Shown: positions 5,124 through 24,649 of the stretch, piece after piece
Layout of the letters: the number at the start of each line of letters is the position of its first letter
How positions within the stretch are numbered: the first letter of the stretch is position 1
From: Alphaproteobacteria bacterium
Lineage (GTDB): Bacteria; Pseudomonadota; Alphaproteobacteria; Micropepsales; Micropepsaceae
Direction: 5' to 3'
Assembly (NCBI GenBank): GCA_016125165.1
Contig: WGMH01000011.1
Coordinates: 1-64,000, forward strand
DNA length: 64,000 bases
Program-made: the position numbers and the translations under genes
Notes under the pieces: generated by a model
Database searches by the model: none
Seen by the model: the letters and a program-made list of their open reading frames with translations, nothing else
Told to the model about the DNA's origin: nothing

Positions 5124-7268
5124 CTACTCCGCCGCGTGCGGGAGTTTGCGTGCGCGGATGAGATCGAGAACCTTCTTCGCGGCTTCGACGATGTTGGTGC
5201 CGGGGCCGAAGATGGCGGCGACGCCGGACTTCTGCAGGAAGGGATAATCCTGCTGCGGGATGACGCCCCCGACCACCACCAGAATGTCTTCGGCCTTTTG
5301 CGCCTTCAATGCTTCGACGAGCTGCGGCACCAGAGTCTTGTGACCGGCGGCCTGGCTGGAAATGCCGATGACGTGCACATCCGCCTCGATGGCATCTTTG
5401 GCGACTTCTTCCGGCGTCTGGAATAGCGGGCCGATATCGACATCGAAACCGAGATCGGCAAACGCGGTGGCGATGACTTTCGCGCCGCGGTCATGTCCAT
5501 CCTGCCCCATCTTGGCGACGAGCATGCGCGGGCGCCGGCCCTCGTCCTTCGCGAATTTCGCCACATCATCGCGAATGGCGGCGAACTCATTGTCGCCTTC
5601 ATAGGCATGGCCATAGACGCCGGAAATGGAGCGGATTTCCGCACGGTGACGGCCAAAGACCTTTTCCATCGCATCGGAAATCTCGCCGACGGTCGCGCGG
5701 GCGCGCGCGGCATTTACGGCAAGCTCTAACAGATTGCCATTGTCCTTCGCACCTTCCGCAAGCGCGGCAAGCGAAGCTTCGACCGCCTTTGCATCGCGCT
5801 TTGCCTTGACATCCTTCAACCGCGCGATTTGCGCGTCCCGCACGGCGGCGTTGTCGATGTCACGGACTTCGATTTCACCACCGTCTTTCACCTGGAATTT
5901 GTTGACGCCGACGATCACATCCTCGGCGCGATCGACGCGCGCCTGACGGCGCGCGGCGGCCTCTTCGATACGCAACTTCGGGATACCGGCTTCAACGGCC
6001 TTGGTCATGCCGCCCATGCGTTCCACGTCGTCGATGATTTCCTGCGCAGCGCTGGCGAGCGAATGGGTGAGCGCCTCCACATAGTAGGAGCCGCCCAGAG
6101 GATCGACCACGCGCGTGACCTGCGCCTCGTTCTGCAGAATGAGCTGCGTGTTGCGGGCGATGCGTGCGGAAAATTCCGTGGGCAGTGCGATGGCCTCGTC
6201 GAATGAATTGGTATGCAGCGATTGCGTGCCGCCGAGCACCGAAGCCAGCGCCTCGATCGTGGTGCGCACGACGTTGTTGTACGGATCCTGTTCGGTGAGC
6301 GAGACGCCGGAGGTTTGGCAATGCGTGCGCAGCATCAGCGAATCCGGCTTCTTCGCATTGAAGCCCTTCATGATGCAGGCCCAAAGGAAGCGCGCGGCGC
6401 GCAGCTTCGCCACTTCCATGAAGAAATTCATGCCAATGCCGAAGAAGAACGACAGGCGCGGCGCGAATGCATCCACATCCAGCCCCTTGGCAAGGGCGGA
6501 ACGCACATATTCGATGCCGTCGGCCAGCGTGTAGGCCAATTCCTGCACCGCCGTCGCGCCGGCTTCATGCATGTGATAGCCGCTGATCGAGATCGAATTG
6601 AACTTCGGCATTTTCGTTGCCGTGTATTCGATGATGTCGGCGACGATGCGCATGGAGGCCGCAGGCGGATAGATATAGGTGTTGCGGACCATGAACTCTT
6701 TCAAAATGTCGTTCTGGATGGTGCCGCTCAGTTTCTCCGGTGAAACGCCCTGCTCTTCCGCCGCGACGATGTAGTTCGCCATCGTCGGGATAACGGCGCC
6801 GTTCATCGTCATCGACACGCTCATCTTGTCGAGCGGGATACCGGAGAAGAGGATCTTCATGTCCTCCACGCTGTCGATGGCAACACCGGCCTTGCCCACA
6901 TCGCCCGCCACGCGCGGATGATCGCTGTCGTAACCGCGATGGGTGGCCAAATCGAACGCCACCGAAAGGCCCATCTGCCCCGCCGCCAGATTGCGGCGAT
7001 AGAAGGCGTTGGATTCTTCGGCGGTGGAAAAGCCCGCATACTGACGAATGGTCCAGGGGCGGCCCGCATACATGGTGCCGCGCACGCCACGCGTGAACGG
7101 GAAGATGCCGGGCAGCGTATCGGTCTCGAAACCTTCCAGATCGGCGGCCGTGTAGAGCGGCTTGACCGCAAAGCCCTCCGGGGTAGCCCAGTTCAGGCTC
7201 TCCAGTGGCTTGTCCCGCAATTCCTTCTGGGCAAGGGCCTGCCAGGCCTTCAGATCGGTGTCACTCAT
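5124..7268 (-). CDS. scpA: methylmalonyl-CoA mutase, single-chain form with C-terminal B12-binding domain
   Basis: [34 protein letters not shown]12-binding [30 protein letters not shown] at 7268 (MSDTDLKAW). Confidence 0.95.
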
Positions 7269-7670: not shown

Positions 7671-10280
7671 AGCAGACGACACGGGATTGCCGGTGGACTG
7701 TCTTCCTCCGGCGGCAACGGCCCCGGCGGTCGCATTGGGGCCGTTCTTGGTCCCACCAACACCGGCAAGACGCATTACGCAATCGAGCGCATGCTGGCGC
7801 ATCGATCCGGCATGATTGGCCTGCCGCTGCGCCTGCTGGCGCGCGAAATCTATGACCGTATCGTACGCATCAAGGGGCCGGCAGTTTGTGCGCTCGTCAC
7901 CGGCGAAGAGAAAATCGTTCCGCCGGACGCGAAGTATTTCGTCTGTACCGTTGAAGCGATGCCGGTGGATCTGAAGCTCAGCTTTCTGGCCATCGACGAA
8001 ATCCAGCTTTGCGCCGACCCGGAGCGCGGGCATGTGTTTACCGATCGGCTCCTCAACGCGCGCGGCGAAGAGGAAACGCTGTTCCTCGGCGCGGAAACGA
8101 TGCGCGGCATGATCCAGCGCTTCGTTCCGGGCGCGCATTTCATCACCCGGCCAAGATTTTCCGATCTGGCCTATACCGGCCACAAGAAGCTCACACGGCT
8201 GCCGCGCCGCGCCGCGATTGTCGCCTTCTCATCAGAGGACGTTTACGGGATTGCCGATCTGGTGCGGCGCCAGCGCGGCGGCGCTGCTGTGGTATTGGGC
8301 GCGCTTTCGCCGCGCACACGCAACGCGCAGGTCGAACTCTATCAATCCGGCGATGTGGATTTCCTCGTTGCCACCGATGCCATCGGCATGGGCCTCAATA
8401 TGGACGTCGATCACGTTGCCTTCGCGGCGATGGAAAAATTCGACGGCGTGGGTGTGCGTCCTCTGCGGCCGGAAGAAATCGGACAGATCGCGGGTCGCGC
8501 AGGCCGTCATATGAACGACGGAACTTTCGGCGTTACAGGTGAAACCGAACCGCTGGAAGATGAAGTGGTGGCGCGCGTAGAGAGCCATCGCTACGAACCA
8601 GTGCGCCTCTTGCAATGGCGCAATTCGAAGCTCGCATTCCATTCCTTGTCCGCCCTGCTTGCCTCACTAGAGGAGATGCCGCCTGCCAAGGGCCTTGTGA
8701 AGGCGCGTCCTTCGATGGACTTTATCTCGCTGCGGCTGCTCGGCGAGCAGGACGACATCGCCGATATTGCGCAATCTCCCGCCGCCGTGAAAACGCTTTG
8801 GGATTCCTGTCAGCTTCCGGATTTTCGCAAACTTTCCCCCGATGAACATATCAAACTGGTGGGACTGATTTATCGTCACCTGATGGTAGATGGCGCCCTG
8901 CCCGAGGACTGGTTTGCCCGCAATGTCGCCAGGCTCGACGAAGTGGAAGGCGACGTGGCGACGCTCTCCGGCCGCCTCGCGCAAATTCGCACGTGGACGT
9001 ATGCAGCGCACAGGCCCGGCTGGATCAAGGACGCCGGCCACTGGCAGGAACAGACTCGTGCCGTGGAAGACCGTCTGTCGGACGCGCTGCACGAAATGCT
9101 CACACAGCGCTTCATCGACCGGCGCACGGCTGTGCTGATGCGTTCGCTGCGCGAAGACGATGCGATGAATCTGGTGCTGGACGATTCCGGTGGCGTTGCC
9201 ATCTCCGGCGAGACGATTGGCAAGCTGGAAGGCTTCCGTTTTACGCCCGATGCACGCGCCGAAGGCATCCATGGCCGCACCCTGCGCGCTGCAGCGCTGA
9301 AAGGTCTTGAAGGAGAATTCCTCGCCCGTGCGCGGCGTATCGCCAAAGCGGAAGATGCGGGCGTCACGCTCAGCGAACACGGCAGGCTGTGGTGGGATGG
9401 CGCCATTGTGGCGCAACTTTCTGCCAGCGCAGATCCATTGAAGCCGGCCGTCACGTTGCTGGCCGATGATATCCTGCGTGGCGATGAGCGCAGCGAAATT
9501 CAGGAACGGCTTGATGCATGGATGACGGTACGGATCGCCACCAAGCTCGATCCGCTCATGGCCTTGCGCAAAGCCTGTGACGTGAAAGCCGGAAGCGAGG
9601 GCGCGCTCGAGGCTCAGGCACGCGGCCTTGCCTGGCAAATGTGCCAGAATTTTGGATCGCTGGACCGTAAGAGTGCCACGCTGCCACCGGATGAACGCAT
9701 CGCAATGCGCGGTCTCCGGGGTTTCGGTATCCGCTTTGGCAAGCGCGCGATTTTTCTGCCCGCGCTGCTGAAGCCCGATGCCGCTTCGTTGCTTGCGCTG
9801 CTGTGGGGTGTGCATGCAAAGCTGGAGAAGATCCCGCCGGCGCCACAGGCCGGTCTGACCTCTTTCGATTTCGACGGCGATGTTCCGCTTGGTTTTCTGG
9901 CCGCTTCCGGATTTCACGTGTGCGGACCACGCGCCATCCGCATCGACATGATCGAGCGGCTGGAGGAAACGCTGCAGGACGCAGCCATCAAGGGCGCGGA
10001 CGCAAATACAGTTTTTCCGAAACTCGTTTCGCTGCTCGGTTCGGATCGCGAAACGATGGAGGCCGTGCTTGCCGCGCTCGGCTGGCACAAGGTGCGCGTG
10101 GAAGGCGAACAGCCTGTCGAGGTGTGGCGCGAAGCCAAGGCCCACGCACCGCAACGGCAAAAGCCGAAACACACGAAGCCAGGACACAAGAAACCTGCGC
10201 GCGAGAAACCGAAACGTGACGACAAACCAAACCCCCATTCCCCGTTCGCCAATCTGAAAGCGATGTTGCAGGGGAAATGA
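7671..10280 (+). CDS. SUV3-like DExH helicase (helicase-related protein); ORF open from 7518
   Basis: GPTNTGKTHYAIERML, AIDEIQLCADPERGHVFTDRLL, LVATDAIGMGLNMDVDHVAFAAMEKFDG, QIAGRAGRH; Lys-rich C-terminus. Confidence 0.9.
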   Translation, partial: SRRHGIAGGLSSSGGNGPGGRIGAVLGPTNTGKTHYAIERMLAHRSGMIGLPLRLLAREIYDRIVRIKGPAVCALVTGEEKIVPPDAKYFVCTVEAMPVDLKLSFLAIDEIQLCADPERGHVFTDRLLNARGEEETLFLGAETMRGMIQRFVPGAHFITRPRFSDLAYTGHKKLTRLPRRAAIVAFSSEDVYGIADLVRRQRGGAAVVLGALSPRTRNAQVELYQSGDVDFLVATDAIGMGLNMDVDHVAFAAMEKFDGVGVRPLRPEEIGQIAGRAGRHMNDGTFGVTGETEPLEDEVVARVESHRYEPVRLLQWRNSKLAFHSLSALLASLEEMPPAKGLVKARPSMDFISLRLLGEQDDIADIAQSPAAVKTLWDSCQLPDFRKLSPDEHIKLVGLIYRHLMVDGALPEDWFARNVARLDEVEGDVATLSGRLAQIRTWTYAAHRPGWIKDAGHWQEQTRAVEDRLSDALHEMLTQRFIDRRTAVLMRSLREDDAMNLVLDDSGGVAISGETIGKLEGFRFTPDARAEGIHGRTLRAAALKGLEGEFLARARRIAKAEDAGVTLSEHGRLWWDGAIVAQLSASADPLKPAVTLLADDILRGDERSEIQERLDAWMTVRIATKLDPLMALRKACDVKAGSEGALEAQARGLAWQMCQNFGSLDRKSATLPPDERIAMRGLRGFGIRFGKRAIFLPALLKPDAASLLALLWGVHAKLEKIPPAPQAGLTSFDFDGDVPLGFLAASGFHVCGPRAIRIDMIERLEETLQDAAIKGADANTVFPKLVSLLGSDRETMEAVLAALGWHKVRVEGEQPVEVWREAKAHAPQRQKPKHTKPGHKKPAREKPKRDDKPNPHSPFANLKAMLQGK

Positions 10281-18283: not shown

Positions 18284-19680
18284 ATATTCCCGACAACATC
18301 CTCGCCCGCCTGAAGGATGCTGCGGGAGCCAGAGGGTTCAGCGAGGACCCATCGGAAATCGCGCCGCATCTGGAGGAATGGCGTAGCAAGTTTCATGGCC
18401 GGTCCAACCTGCTGCTGAAGCCGGATTGCACCGAAGCCGTCGCCAAAATCCTTTCGATCTGCAATAGCGCACGCATTGCGGTGGTTCCTCAAGGCGGAAA
18501 TACGGGCCTGGTGGGCGGACAAATCCCGTTTCACGGCGAGATCGTTCTCAGCCTCAAGCGCATGAACACCGTGCGCTCGGTCGACCCGGATGATTTCGCA
18601 ATGGTCGCCGAAGCCGGCGTGATCCTTGCCGATGCACAGCGGGCGGCAGAGCAGAAGCAGTTACTTTTCCCGCTCAGCATCGCAGCGGAAGGGTCCTGCA
18701 CCATTGGCGGCAACCTTTCGACCAATGCAGGCGGTGTGAATGTGCTGCGGTACGGTTCTGCGCGCGATCTGGTTCTGGGTATCGAGGCCGTGCTGGCTGA
18801 CGGCCGCGTACTCGACATGCTGAAGGTGCTGCGCAAGGACAATACAGGTTACGACCTGAAGCAACTCTTCATCGGGGCGGAGGGTACGCTTGGCGTCATC
18901 ACGGCCGCGTCGCTCAAACTCTATCCGCAGCCGATCTCGCGCGGGACGGTGTTGTTCGCCTTCGAAAACCTGGGCGCGGCGGTTCAGGCATTCAGCCGCC
19001 TGCAACACGACACCGGAAACCTTCTGACTTCCTTTGAATTGATTTCGCGCACTGCGCTGGAGCTGGTGCTGAAACATTTCCCCGGCCTGCGCGATCCGTT
19101 CATGCGGCCGCACCGATGGTATGCGCTGGCCGAAGCCTCTTCATCGGGGATGTTGCCGATGGAACACGTGATGTCGGAGAGCGTGGAGCGCATGTCCAGC
19201 CACTATACCGACGCCATACCCGCCATGAACGAAGCGCAGCGCGCAGCCTTCTGGGCCTTGCGCGAAAACATTTCCGAAGCGCAGAAACGCGAGGGCGCCT
19301 CCATCAAGCACGACATATCAGTGCCGGTGCGGGACATTCCGCGATTTGTGGCAGAGGCCGTGCCCGCGGTGGAGGCGATAGTGCCCGGCGCAAGACCTGT
19401 GACGTTCGGCCATCTGGGCGATGGCAATCTCCACTTCAACTTCAGTGTTCCCATCGGCGGCGATGATGCGGCGTTTCTTGGACATTGGGAGGCAATCGCG
19501 CGTAAGGTCCATGATATCGTGCATGCGCACGCCGGATCCATCAGCGCTGAGCATGGCATCGGTATCCTGAAGCGTGAGGATATCGTGCGCTACAAGAGCG
19601 CGGCCGAAATCGAGACGATGCGCGCGCTGAAGCGCGCATTGGATCCAAACGGAATTCTCAATCCCGGCAAGGTTGTTTAA
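18280..19680 (+). CDS. FAD-binding oxidoreductase (D-2-hydroxyacid/2-hydroxyglutarate dehydrogenase-like)
   Basis: VVPQGGNTGLVGGQIP; GSCTIGGNLSTNAGGVNVLRYGSARDLVLGIEAVLADG; GTG start overlapping sua5 stop. Confidence 0.9.
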   Translation: MNIPDNILARLKDAAGARGFSEDPSEIAPHLEEWRSKFHGRSNLLLKPDCTEAVAKILSICNSARIAVVPQGGNTGLVGGQIPFHGEIVLSLKRMNTVRSVDPDDFAMVAEAGVILADAQRAAEQKQLLFPLSIAAEGSCTIGGNLSTNAGGVNVLRYGSARDLVLGIEAVLADGRVLDMLKVLRKDNTGYDLKQLFIGAEGTLGVITAASLKLYPQPISRGTVLFAFENLGAAVQAFSRLQHDTGNLLTSFELISRTALELVLKHFPGLRDPFMRPHRWYALAEASSSGMLPMEHVMSESVERMSSHYTDAIPAMNEAQRAAFWALRENISEAQKREGASIKHDISVPVRDIPRFVAEAVPAVEAIVPGARPVTFGHLGDGNLHFNFSVPIGGDDAAFLGHWEAIARKVHDIVHAHAGSISAEHGIGILKREDIVRYKSAAEIETMRALKRALDPNGILNPGKVV

Positions 19681-22319
19681 GCGGCCCTGGGCAATTCCGC
19701 ATCTTCCGATTCTGACCCGGCAGCCCCAGCATCCGCCGCGCTTACACGATATGAGGAAGCGCTGATTGCCGCCATCATCAAGGTGGCAATGTAGGGCAAA
19801 AGCTGAATGGTGAGCATGATCATCCAAAGTACGGCGGCGGACTCACCGAAGCCGCGATACCGCGCCGTGCCGAAGATCGCCAGCCCGCAAAGGCCGAGCA
19901 GCGTCGCTTCCTGCCACACCACACGGAACACCTGATCGAGCGCAGCAGGGTTTTCCATCTTCGGCGTGCGCAGGAACGGCTTGTTCGAGGTGAAAAGACC
20001 GGAGATCACCGCCTTGGCGACAGTATGGGTGAGCGAAAGTCCCGCGATGGATGCGAGGAACGCACCGCTGACGCCAGAACCGACTTTCTGGGGATAGAGC
20101 AGCAACGTCTTCAATGTCTTTGCGCCAAACAGCGCCAGTGCCGCCGTGGACAGGGCCGCCATCGGCGCGCTGAAATATTCCGGCATGGTGATCATCAACA
20201 GAGTCCACAACAGCGCGAGCCCGGTGATAATCAAGCTGAGGCCATCGGAAATCCACGGCAGCCAACCGGACAAGAACTGATACCGTTGCGCCCATGTGAG
20301 CCTGGTTCGCCCCAGAAAAATGGCGCCCGCATGACGTTTCATGATCTGCATCGCGCCATAAACCCAGCGATGGCGCTGGCTCATGAAGGCCGCGAGCGTA
20401 TCTGGCGTCAGTCCGCGACCCATGCTTTCGGGGATGTAGGCGGCGCTGTAGCCGGCTTCGAACAGTTTCAGGCCAAGCTCGGTGTCTTCGGTAATGCACC
20501 ACGTGCTCCAGCCACCGACCTCCTCAAGCGCATTCTTGCGCACGATCGTCATGGTGCCGTGCTGAATGATCGCGTCGTGCTCGTTTCGCTCCACCATACC
20601 GATGTGGAAGAAGCCGCGATATTCCTCAAAACACATGGTCTTGAAGAGGCCTTCGGTGCCGTCACGATAATCCTGCGGGCCCTGCACCACCGCCACTTCC
20701 GGAGAAGCAAACAGCGGCATGGCCCGGCGCAGCCAATAGGGTTCCACGCAATAATCGCTATCAATGACGGCGATGTATTGCGCGGCAGGATCGGTAACGG
20801 CCATCGCTTCGTTCAGTGCGCCGGCCTTGAAACCTTCAACCTTGTCGAAATGAAAGAAGCGGAAGCGGGCACCAAGACGCGCGCAATGCGCCTCCACAGG
20901 TTTCCAGACCGCTTCGTCTTTCGTGTTGTTATCGATGAGCAGGACTTCAAAATTGTCGTAGTCGAGCGCGGCCAGACCATCGAGCGTGGCCATCACCATA
21001 TCTGGCGGCTCATTGTAACAAGGCACATGGATCGAAACACGCGGTGAGCTTTCCGGAATGGCGGCCTGAACCACGCGCCGTTCCACCCGCCACAGACTTG
21101 CGGCCAGTTCCACCCCCTCGGTGAGAATGAGGGTGGCCGCCAGCAGCACCAGCGGCACCATTGCCGCAATCATGACGATGTAACTCGGTTCCAGATATTC
21201 CAGAACGCTTTCGTCGACGAGCACGAAGAGGCCGGTGGCCACGACCGCCACCAGACCGCCCATGACGAGGTATCCCGTCTGGCGAACCGCCGGCATGCGG
21301 CCCAGGATCAGCAAACCAAGAAGGAATGTGAGGACCGCCGCACCAAGTGCATATTCACGCCATTCGGGAAATGCGCGCAGCATACCGGTGAAGGCGAATT
21401 TGGGATCGCCTGCGGCATCATAGAGACCCCAATAGGCGCCGACTGCACCTTCCGCCCCGCCTTTCCATGGCTGGTCGAAGGCTTCGATCAGATAGTAGTC
21501 GTAGCCTTTTTCCATCGCGAGCTGCACGAAGCTGCGGATGAACAGGGCCTCATTTGCAATGGAGGCTTCCGCAAAACGTCGCGACTTGCCTTCAGACGGC
21601 CAACCGGCTTCGCCAATGATGATTGTCTTGTCTGGAAACTCGCGGCGCACATGGCCAAGCGCGCGCTGCACGAAACCCATGGAGTCGCGCGCGCTGATAC
21701 CTTCCCAATAGGGAAGCAAATGCACGGATATCATATCAACGTGTTCGCCGATCTCCGGACTGAGCAACCATGTCGACCACGGCTCTGCCGTCGTCACCTT
21801 GATGCGGTTGGGAAGCGCAGCACGCACGCGCATGATGTAGGCGTTAAGCTGATCGCTCGAAACATCGCCACGCAGGATGGTCTCGTTGCCGACAAACACG
21901 CGATCGACCGTCCGGCGATTGGCCGTGGCCACGCGGATCAGCGTTTCCAGTTCCTTTTCATTCTCCTGCAGATCCGGACCAATCCATGCGCCAAGCGAAA
22001 CGGTGATACCATAACGGCGAGCAATCTCCGGCACGCGGTCAAGCCCGCTGGAAACCGTGTATGTGCGCACATGGGAGGTGATCTTGGAAAGTTCGCGCAT
22101 ATCGCGGTCGATATGCTCGGGCGAAACCAGATCGTGATCCTTGCGCGTATATAGGCCCGAGGGGCTGTACGCGACGCCACGCACGAGCCCATCCCAATCC
22201 GGCGCTACAACGGCGTAATCCCGGCTCGCCCAGAACATGAAGCTCGCGCCCACGACCAGCGCCAGCGCGACCACTATGCGCATCGTTCCACGCGGACGGG
22301 CCCAATCGGGCAAGTTCAC
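19677..22319 (-). CDS. GH17-GT2 bifunctional beta-glucan synthase (NdvB-like)
   Basis: N-terminal GH17-like region (VFVGNETILRGD, IIIGEAGWPSEG); C-terminal processive GT2 (DSDYCVEPYW, ITEDTELGLKL, QRHRWVYGAMQI) with TM segments. Confidence 0.88.
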   Translation of the reverse strand: MNLPDWARPRGTMRIVVALALVVGASFMFWASRDYAVVAPDWDGLVRGVAYSPSGLYTRKDHDLVSPEHIDRDMRELSKITSHVRTYTVSSGLDRVPEIARRYGITVSLGAWIGPDLQENEKELETLIRVATANRRTVDRVFVGNETILRGDVSSDQLNAYIMRVRAALPNRIKVTTAEPWSTWLLSPEIGEHVDMISVHLLPYWEGISARDSMGFVQRALGHVRREFPDKTIIIGEAGWPSEGKSRRFAEASIANEALFIRSFVQLAMEKGYDYYLIEAFDQPWKGGAEGAVGAYWGLYDAAGDPKFAFTGMLRAFPEWREYALGAAVLTFLLGLLILGRMPAVRQTGYLVMGGLVAVVATGLFVLVDESVLEYLEPSYIVMIAAMVPLVLLAATLILTEGVELAASLWRVERRVVQAAIPESSPRVSIHVPCYNEPPDMVMATLDGLAALDYDNFEVLLIDNNTKDEAVWKPVEAHCARLGARFRFFHFDKVEGFKAGALNEAMAVTDPAAQYIAVIDSDYCVEPYWLRRAMPLFASPEVAVVQGPQDYRDGTEGLFKTMCFEEYRGFFHIGMVERNEHDAIIQHGTMTIVRKNALEEVGGWSTWCITEDTELGLKLFEAGYSAAYIPESMGRGLTPDTLAAFMSQRHRWVYGAMQIMKRHAGAIFLGRTRLTWAQRYQFLSGWLPWISDGLSLIITGLALLWTLLMITMPEYFSAPMAALSTAALALFGAKTLKTLLLYPQKVGSGVSGAFLASIAGLSLTHTVAKAVISGLFTSNKPFLRTPKMENPAALDQVFRVVWQEATLLGLCGLAIFGTARYRGFGESAAVLWMIMLTIQLLPYIATLMMAAISASSYRVSAADAGAAGSESEDAELPRAA

Positions 22320-22343: not shown

Positions 22344-22850
22344 CTATTGGTCGTCGTCGTGGCGTTCCGGAGGGGCGGGCGTCATGGAGACCAGTTCCAT
22401 GTCAAAAACCAACGTCTGGTCAGGTGGAATTGCATCACCAGCACCACGCGACCCGTAGCCTAGGCGACCAGGAATTACGATCTCCCAGTGATCGCCTTCC
22501 CGCATCAGGCCCAAAGCCTCCTTCCAACCTTGGATCAGACCGCTGATTGGGAAAGTTGCAGGAAGTCCAGGTTCGGTAGAATCGAATACCGTCCCGTTGA
22601 TCAGGCTACCCTTATAATAAACAGTCACCGTGTCCCTGGCACTTGGTCTGCGCCCAAAACCGTTCTGGATGATGCGATACTCGAGGCCGCTTGGACGGAC
22701 GATCACGCCCCGTTTTTGGGCGTAGTCGGCGAGATACTTCGCGTTCGCTTCCGGGCTTAATGAGGCATCGACCGCCATCGCTGGAGCCGCGCTCAGCGCG
22801 AAAACCGCCGCAAGGGCAAAACCCAACCACCGCATCTGCATACTCCCCAT
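22344..22850 (-). CDS. exported FKBP-type peptidyl-prolyl isomerase
   Basis: Signal peptide; TVTVYYKGSLINGTVFDSTEPGLPATFPISGLIQGWKEALGLMREGDHWEIVIPGRLGYG. Confidence 0.92.
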   Translation of the reverse strand: MGSMQMRWLGFALAAVFALSAAPAMAVDASLSPEANAKYLADYAQKRGVIVRPSGLEYRIIQNGFGRRPSARDTVTVYYKGSLINGTVFDSTEPGLPATFPISGLIQGWKEALGLMREGDHWEIVIPGRLGYGSRGAGDAIPPDQTLVFDMELVSMTPAPPERHDDDQ

Positions 22851-22937
22851 CTGAACAGGCTGAATGGCGCCAGGCCACCCGTTCCGGCACCGGCAAAGCA
22901 ATACTCCCCAACGCCTTGGATTCAAAGCCAGAATGCC

Positions 22938-23408
22938 CTAGCGGGCGAGGAGGAACCGCGCCAGCCACGACCGCTTGGGCTTGGAGGCCCGGGTTCCGGC
23001 CATTTTCGCCAGTTGCGCTCCAATCGGCTCCGGTACCGATGCCTGTTCCGGCAGGTCAAAAGTTGGGGCAGCAATCCGTGTCACGGCCACGGAGCGATCC
23101 TTGTGCAGCGAAAAAACATGCAAGGCCGCTTGTTCCCGCAATCCGGAGAACTGGCGCGGAAGCACGAGAGCTTCCTTCGCGAGAATGCGCTGGGCAGCAA
23201 AATTGCGCTCCCACATCGTGTCGGGCGCGGTTTTAACGTCTGCTCCGTTCAGAACCAGCGGCGGCACGCCCGGATGTACAGCAGGCGGCGCGCCCAGTTT
23301 ACGGGCCAGTTCGTCCAGCCGCGCGATGCCATCGGCCAATCCGGCTGGTGGCGCTTCGGGCAGCAACGGAGCAAATGTCTTCTTGGGCTTCTTGCGCCAG
23401 AACATCAT
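22938..23408 (-). CDS. hypothetical protein, coupled to the upstream proteasome-like protein
   Basis: MMFWRKKPKKTFAPLLPEAPP...; its ATG overlaps the preceding stop (ATGA). Confidence 0.65.
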   Translation of the reverse strand: MMFWRKKPKKTFAPLLPEAPPAGLADGIARLDELARKLGAPPAVHPGVPPLVLNGADVKTAPDTMWERNFAAQRILAKEALVLPRQFSGLREQAALHVFSLHKDRSVAVTRIAAPTFDLPEQASVPEPIGAQLAKMAGTRASKPKRSWLARFLLAR

Positions 23409-24649
23409 TCGCCTCCTGCCTTGTTCACCCATTGGAAGCCGCTCTCGCGGCTGATGACCGCCGAAATCACCTCACCGCCAACCGTTTCCTTTTCGGCCAG
23501 CGCACGCTTCTTGAAGATGTTGAGGTTCACAAGCTCGGCCGCTGTCTGCGCAAGCTCCTTGCGGCCAGCCACTTCGAGTACACGCAGGATCGGATTGATG
23601 AACATCTGGTGCTGATACCGCGCGATGCCGCGATAGAAGTAGGCAAAATAGCGAGGCAGCATATCCTGCTGCACCGCCTGCCGCACGCCCTCGCGCTGCA
23701 CCGGATCGCTGCTGGCAAAGGCGTCAACGGTCTCGTCTGCGATCGCCTTCAAAAAGAGCGCGGCACCGTCATACATATGCTGTTCAAGACCAGGATCGAT
23801 CCCGCGAATGAATGCACTGGCCGCCCCGCTATCGGCGAACAGCAGGATTTGCGAATGCACGTCTCCGTCGATCGAGTCGATGCTCTTCTGCGAGCGTTTC
23901 ATGATGCCTCCGACGATGGCAGAAGCATAGTAGGTGACGATGGTGGGATAGCGATCGTCTTCACCAAAGCCCGCAAACACCAGTCCGCTAACGTCTTCCA
24001 GGAACAGATCCTTCACAACCGCAAAAACTGCGATTTCACGTAGCTGCTGCTGCGCCTGGACACTCAGGCCATATGCCCCGAAGGCATAGGCGATGACTTC
24101 CTCGATATCCTTGCCGTGCTGTGCGGCAATTGTCTGCGCGAAGCCTTCTGGAAAGCAGGGCAGATTTGCCCGTGGTCCGCCCTGCCCGTCGAATTGATAG
24201 CCGCGCCAGATTTCCTCAATCACCGCTGCCAGAAGAGCCCGCTCATCACCCTGCCCGCCCATGCTACCGATGAGATATTGGGCGTAGCTGAAGATGTAGC
24301 GATAGACGGACACGATCAGCCGCTTGAATTCGTCCTCGTGCCGCTCCTTCGGGAAAAATTCTTCCAGATGGTCGAACATGCCGGTGAAGCTGGCGGCATA
24401 GTCTTCGATATGAGCCATGGCGCCAGGCTTCAATTTGCGTTGGTAGTGGCTGATAAGCTGTTCCCACGGATGGCCCATCACTTCGGCGCCGCCATAGAAC
24501 ATGACGCCGACGGGCTGGCCCTCCACCAGATTGAACAGCTTGCGATGCTCGTTTCGCACCACCACTCGGCCGCCGTCGATCAGCGTTACGGCGGAATCCG
24601 CCGCAAGCGCAACCGCCCGCTGGTTCATCACCGCGATTTCCGACGTCAT
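23405..24649 (-). CDS. uncharacterised proteasome/HslV-like Ntn-hydrolase candidate
   Basis: MTSEIAVMNQRAVALAADSAVTL...RNEHRKLFNLVEGQPVGVMFYGGAE: Thr after Met, Asp at position 17 counted from that Thr, downstream Lys and GG, like proteasome beta/HslV N-termini. Confidence 0.75.
   Translation of the reverse strand: MTSEIAVMNQRAVALAADSAVTLIDGGRVVVRNEHRKLFNLVEGQPVGVMFYGGAEVMGHPWEQLISHYQRKLKPGAMAHIEDYAASFTGMFDHLEEFFPKERHEDEFKRLIVSVYRYIFSYAQYLIGSMGGQGDERALLAAVIEEIWRGYQFDGQGGPRANLPCFPEGFAQTIAAQHGKDIEEVIAYAFGAYGLSVQAQQQLREIAVFAVVKDLFLEDVSGLVFAGFGEDDRYPTIVTYYASAIVGGIMKRSQKSIDSIDGDVHSQILLFADSGAASAFIRGIDPGLEQHMYDGAALFLKAIADETVDAFASSDPVQREGVRQAVQQDMLPRYFAYFYRGIARYQHQMFINPILRVLEVAGRKELAQTAAELVNLNIFKKRALAEKETVGGEVISAVISRESGFQWVNKAGGE

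Follow-up and report, generated by a model that had tools for sequence, protein, structure and literature searches.

A probable PMI-4-type proteasome homologue of an alphaproteobacterium with a small, probably translation-coupled partner gene, and small genes downstream of its phage relatives

The window (the whole stretch of DNA that was analysed, 64,000 nucleotides of an alphaproteobacterial contig) encodes a protein, P0001, that is most likely an N-terminal-Thr hydrolase or ligase acting with a small co-translated partner, P0002, in this clade at the membrane (Table 1). The best explanation as a whole, to which we assign a probability of about 0.62, is a Thr hydrolase of the PMI-4 family that would work together with P0002, would be tethered here at the inner membrane and would have originated in phage conflict. 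A small conserved partner gene of PMI-4 enzymes is absent from the survey of Fuchs, Alva and Lupas (2021), in which 22 new proteasome homologues were catalogued and whose authors reported neither a genomic context suggestive of function nor co-occurring genes (PMC8665760); it is new here.

Table 1. Coordinates of the two-gene cassette, its neighbours and the rhizobial plasmid loci (loci other than the window are given with their own numbering).
Feature	Position	Strand	Remarks
P0001, PMI-4-type proteasome-like Ntn-hydrolase (putative), 414 aa	23405..24649	-	Predicted nucleophile Thr2 (Thr1 after Met removal), Asp18, Lys37
ATGA overlap, P0001 stop / P0002 start	23405..23408	-	AGGAGG ribosome-binding site within the P0001 coding end
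P0002, small partner, 156 aa	22938..23408	-	Positional orthologues, selection; no confident structure predicted
P0002 C-terminal basic-aromatic tail KPKRSWLARFLLAR	22941..22982	-	Resembles the MinD membrane-targeting tail
Exported FKBP-type prolyl isomerase, neighbour outside the cassette	22344..22841	-	Pfam FKBP_C; kept without the cassette
Membrane GH17-GT2 glycosyltransferase, neighbour outside the cassette	19677..22319	-	Kept without the cassette
PMI-4 genes near multiubiquitin/ThiF	L177 4733-9437; L178 8001-14484; L180; L181		Rhizobial plasmids

Direct reading of the minus strand confirmed the open reading frame beginning M-T (N-terminus MTSEIAVMNQRAVALAADSAVTLIDGGRVVVRNEHRKLFNLVEGQPVGVMFYGGAE) and, with Thr counted as 1, the Asp at 17, the Lys at 36 and the GG pair at 52-53, as a sequence-only reading of this DNA had numbered them. 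The longer TTG start in the list of open reading frames is probably not used, because conservation among the relatives starts at the annotated ATG. In an alignment of 38 diverse relatives (22-30% identity to P0001), Thr2 was present in 37 and replaced by Ser in the remaining one, and Asp18 and Lys37 were invariant (38/38), a retention beyond chance. The Asp and Lys occupy the positions of D17 and K33 of 20S/HslV, and profile-profile alignment with hhalign paired the T, D and K of P0001 with those of HslV (weak overall, P 0.005). No significant match to P0001 was found in Pfam, NCBIfam or single-sequence PDB searches. Of 69 genomes of the genus, 28 carry a relative of near full length; further relatives come from 112 viral-contig stretches, 10 plasmid records and 13 records of phages or satellites.

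The AlphaFold2 model of P0001 is confident (pLDDT 92.1, pTM 0.89) and, like the Foldseek comparison, displays a beta-sandwich core with flanking helices; all of the 50 PDB matches listed by Foldseek were 20S proteasome or Anbu chains, the top ones with a probability near 1. The C-terminal strand GG-x-IDVAVI matches archaeal 20S beta (E 0.02). Together with the invariant T/D/K these results support the proteasome-type Ntn-hydrolase suggested from the sequence, and we have little doubt about the predicted proteasome-like fold and active site, the fold being settled as far as prediction allows. Of the "one large extra domain" in the same suggestion, the extra sequence stands and the single domain does not: the model shows two separate helical blocks (62-212 and 275-383) inserted into the sandwich. 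In the first, helices 81-212 lie between H1 (62-72) and a strand at 221; the second, the H3/H4 insertion, places some 120 largely helical residues between a strand that ends at 272 and one that starts at 394. A shorter proteasome-like family of 280 aa, with a similar N-terminus and without the large insertions, was also noticed (L151 7968-8985; L225, reverse complement, 7896-8738); its genes, too, have an ORF of 61-62 aa downstream.

The name PMI-4 stands for a proteasome homologue with multiple insertions; only PMI-3 and PMI-4 have both a long insertion behind H1/H2 and a further one between H3 and H4, and of these two, phages are listed for PMI-4 only (Table 1 in PMC8665760). Because both insertions are present in the model and the distribution among bacteria is broad and includes phages, P0001 probably belongs to PMI-4, an assignment made by insertions and distribution. 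PHROG 5990 matches P0001 across its full length (E 9e-66) and, judged by this match, is the same family. The enzyme can thus no longer be called undescribed, as it had been, although a literature search found no functional study of PMI-4.

The ATGA in which the stop codon of P0001 and the start codon of P0002 overlap was confirmed by direct reading. The two genes are probably translationally coupled, because the ribosome-binding site of P0002 lies inside the end of P0001 and GGAG-type sequences with comparable spacing are found at the equivalent place in the relatives from the genus. Positional orthologues and purifying selection on orthologue pairs (dN/dS 0.12-0.41 in the genus, with dN above that of the matching P0001 orthologues) argue that P0002 is a real gene. 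A gene of 112-156 aa follows the P0001 orthologue directly in all of the 16 loci first examined, and with the partner matched in three further loci, a partner-size gene is present downstream in 19/19 cassette loci examined. Homology searches with P0002 found it in only one other genome, the other partners being located by position, and the model of P0002 alone is of low confidence (pLDDT 49).

At the same site, none of 16 loci without P0001 carries an intact partner, and the FKBP and GH17-GT2 genes are retained. In one of the genomes (G009; L165, reverse complement, 7134-7217), a 29-aa match to the partner protein remains and the cassette is otherwise gone, likely a deletion scar. On the tree of the neighbouring GH17-GT2 protein, at least six cassette changes are required. 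Since the cassette-less loci keep the FKBP and GH17-GT2 genes but no intact partner, the unit, as judged by these comparisons, is a cassette of two genes, P0001 and P0002, jointly gained and lost at one site in the genus. The "three-gene unit" with the FKBP proposed earlier has therefore to be given up, whereas the coupled partner gained support and extends far beyond the source genome (19/19 cassette loci, and 26/30 phage-type representatives, see below); we consider it probable that the partner forms a real functional unit with the PMI-4 enzyme.

The exported FKBP itself was correctly recognized (FKBP_C, E 6.8e-24, with a signal-peptide-like start), but it begins about 100 nt beyond P0002, at an ATG at 22841 or 22835, and is not genetically linked to the cassette. 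It scores 106.4 against the NCBIfam cut-off of 100 for BamJ, a family of the beta-barrel-assembly machinery. The GH17-GT2 protein combines a GH17-like N-terminal part, below the Pfam cut-off, with a GT2 domain; almost every genome sampled in the genus has its gene, and the membrane protein is possibly a beta-glucan synthase.

Partner genes are not restricted to the genus. Other alphaproteobacterial PMI-4 genes that lack a C-terminal KRKHYF...LN tail are followed by a gene of about 110-195 aa, and the sampled tail-less proteins with long partners group on one side of a branch (SH-aLRT 98) in a quick tree that includes one very long row, L227, the partner of which does not have the basic-aromatic tail pattern. 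In the phage-type clade, an ATG with a ribosome-binding site, at most 35 nt from the stop codon and opening an ORF of 35-90 aa, was found downstream in 26 of 30 PMI-4 representatives versus 7 of 84 controls, i.e., other long ORFs of the same loci (p 2.5e-15), and at 60 of 1980 random positions. The small phage-type genes showed dN/dS values of 0.06-0.27 where dS was measurable, synonymous sites being saturated in the other pairs. Downstream of the PMI-4 gene of E. coli H3, a 49-aa ORF of this kind carries no annotation.

Most of the long partners have a basic-aromatic stretch at the C-terminus (e.g., TPKKKRGFFGWLFGR in L220). The tail of the L222 partner, RKKGFLRRLFGAR, resembles the C-terminus of E. 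coli MinD, EEKKGFLKRLFGG; the likeness is confined to the last dozen residues, and MinD has an ATPase domain whereas the partner has none. The C-terminus of MinD is a membrane-targeting helix, and because the partner tails resemble it, we see about an even chance that the partner tail tethers the enzyme to the membrane in the alphaproteobacterial clade. The tail pattern was drawn up after the partners had been viewed, and its fit to them is therefore not independent; among the 684 proteins scanned, however, it matched only 3 of about 665 non-partners and revealed two partners not previously sought (in L222 and L223). The hydrophobic moment of the tails did not exceed that of shuffled sequences, but MinD itself failed the same test, which therefore has no power. 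The phage-type partners and the alphaproteobacterial partner in L227 lack the tail, so that the partners may not all work by one mechanism.

Among mobile elements, the PMI-4 gene lies between the antiterminator Q and holin genes in the E. coli H3 prophage, in opposite orientation to its neighbours, between Q and holin in a Providencia phage, next to the holin gene in a Stenotrophomonas phage, at the end of a Streptococcus prophage, and near the end or late in satellites; full-length copies occur in E. coli prophages. These look like cargo positions, which suggests that the mobile relatives act in competition among phages or prophages, a suggestion that we regard as evenly balanced. In a prophage of E. 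coli 20KM2222 (L235 4787-6190), the gene adjoins an HTH gene and YdaS/YdaT, upstream of recE/recT. Three plasmids of Rhizobium and one of Mesorhizobium carry genes for multiubiquitin and a ThiF-type E1 near the PMI-4 gene, and a gene for a ClpP-like subunit is also close by in the Rhizobium cases.

In the mechanism we propose, methionine aminopeptidase would remove the Met and expose Thr1 of P0001, which with Asp17 and the Lys of HRKLF would form the catalytic site on the proteasome beta-type sandwich. A closed, HslV-like double ring is probably precluded by the two large helical blocks, one behind H1 and the other in the H3/H4 region, which probably also supply binding surfaces. P0002, probably made from the P0001 mRNA by translational coupling, would bind P0001 and, in the alphaproteobacterial clade, keep it at the inner membrane by its MinD-like C-terminal tail; catalysis by P0001, its physical binding to P0002 and the tethering are what we infer. 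Outside this clade, the enzyme and its partner of 35-90 aa would be prophage or satellite cargo, and the original role was therefore probably in phage-host or phage-phage conflict. Tentatively, and with somewhat more doubt than confidence, PMI-4 and its small partners may be seen as a previously unrecognised phage-mobilised two-gene system for phage conflict, with a Thr enzyme that is controlled by, or acts on, its partner, one alphaproteobacterial branch of which has become a membrane-tethered chromosomal enzyme.

A toxin-antitoxin-like or pro-enzyme pair, in which a damaging protease is held by a small inhibitor or self-cleaved regulator and the pair stabilises mobile elements or kills infected cells, would account for a partner that is small, fast-evolving and translation-coupled, for the occurrence of PMI-4 in prophages, satellites and plasmids and for the joint gain and loss of the pair. 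The partner gene is, however, downstream, whereas many antitoxin genes are upstream; in the alphaproteobacterial clade, moreover, the copies are on the chromosome and have been lost repeatedly, and P0001 had no PADLOC match; we regard this explanation as unlikely, if still worth serious consideration. Somewhat less probable is a protein ligase or an enzyme processing a single target, comparable to the archaeal connectase, with the partner as substrate or substrate adaptor: the fold and the N-terminal Thr are common to connectase and P0001, the insertions are likely ring-blocking, as has been argued for PMI proteins (PMC8665760), and a dedicated partner suggests narrow specificity, but the S3/S4 insertion that defines connectase is absent from the P0001 model and no peptide motif shared across all partners was found.

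That P0001 serves as a scaffold without catalysis, or assists the FKBP-glycan gene cluster with no link to mobile elements here, would fit its stable chromosomal site beside the FKBP and GH17-GT2 genes in the genus; it is made highly improbable by the retention of T, D and K despite deep divergence and by the persistence of both neighbours where the cassette is missing. A ubiquitin-like pathway, in which PMI-4 would degrade proteins tagged by bacterial multiubiquitin/ThiF systems, finds encouragement in the multiubiquitin and ThiF genes within a few kb on the four rhizobial plasmids, in two distinct arrangements, but is highly improbable, as the association recurred in none of the viral or other-class PMI-4 loci tested, the genome of P0001 has no Multi_ubiq match and plasmid islands accumulate accessory genes.

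For a Thr hydrolase acting with P0002, our preferred reading, the significance lies in the partner gene: the 22 proteasome homologues of 2021 had no functional lead, and the conserved small gene supplies one, in that its product may bind the PMI-4 enzyme, be its substrate or inhibit it, the two genes forming one unit. Its tail, moreover, yields a testable prediction, namely a membrane location in one clade.

Compared with known systems, P0001 shares the predicted fold and the positions of Thr1, Asp17 and Lys33 with HslV, 20S beta and Anbu. HslV, of about 175 aa, belongs to PF00227 and is paired with HslU, whereas P0001 is about twice as long and has no PF00227 match; as HslU was not found among the genes neighbouring P0001 and HslV is encoded at a separate locus in the same genome, P0001 was ruled out as HslV. 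Anbu has a long C-terminal helix H5, whereas the model of P0001 ends in a strand (404-409, followed by five residues) without that helix. Connectase resembles P0001 in its proteasome-like fold and does not form rings, but its two-helix insertion between S3 and S4 has no counterpart in P0001, in which strands 38-40 and 47-53 are connected by a short loop and the insertions lie elsewhere. PHROG 5990 is a phage family without functional annotation, whereas the alphaproteobacterial clade of P0001 is chromosomal. The closest likeness is to PMI-4, which has a proteasome-like core bearing Thr/Asp/Lys, interrupted by insertions behind H1/H2 and again between H3/H4, and a wide bacterial range including phages; from PMI-4 as described, P0001 differs in its small coupled partner gene and in its membership of a chromosomal alphaproteobacterial clade that lacks the KRKHYF...LN tail and has a longer partner.
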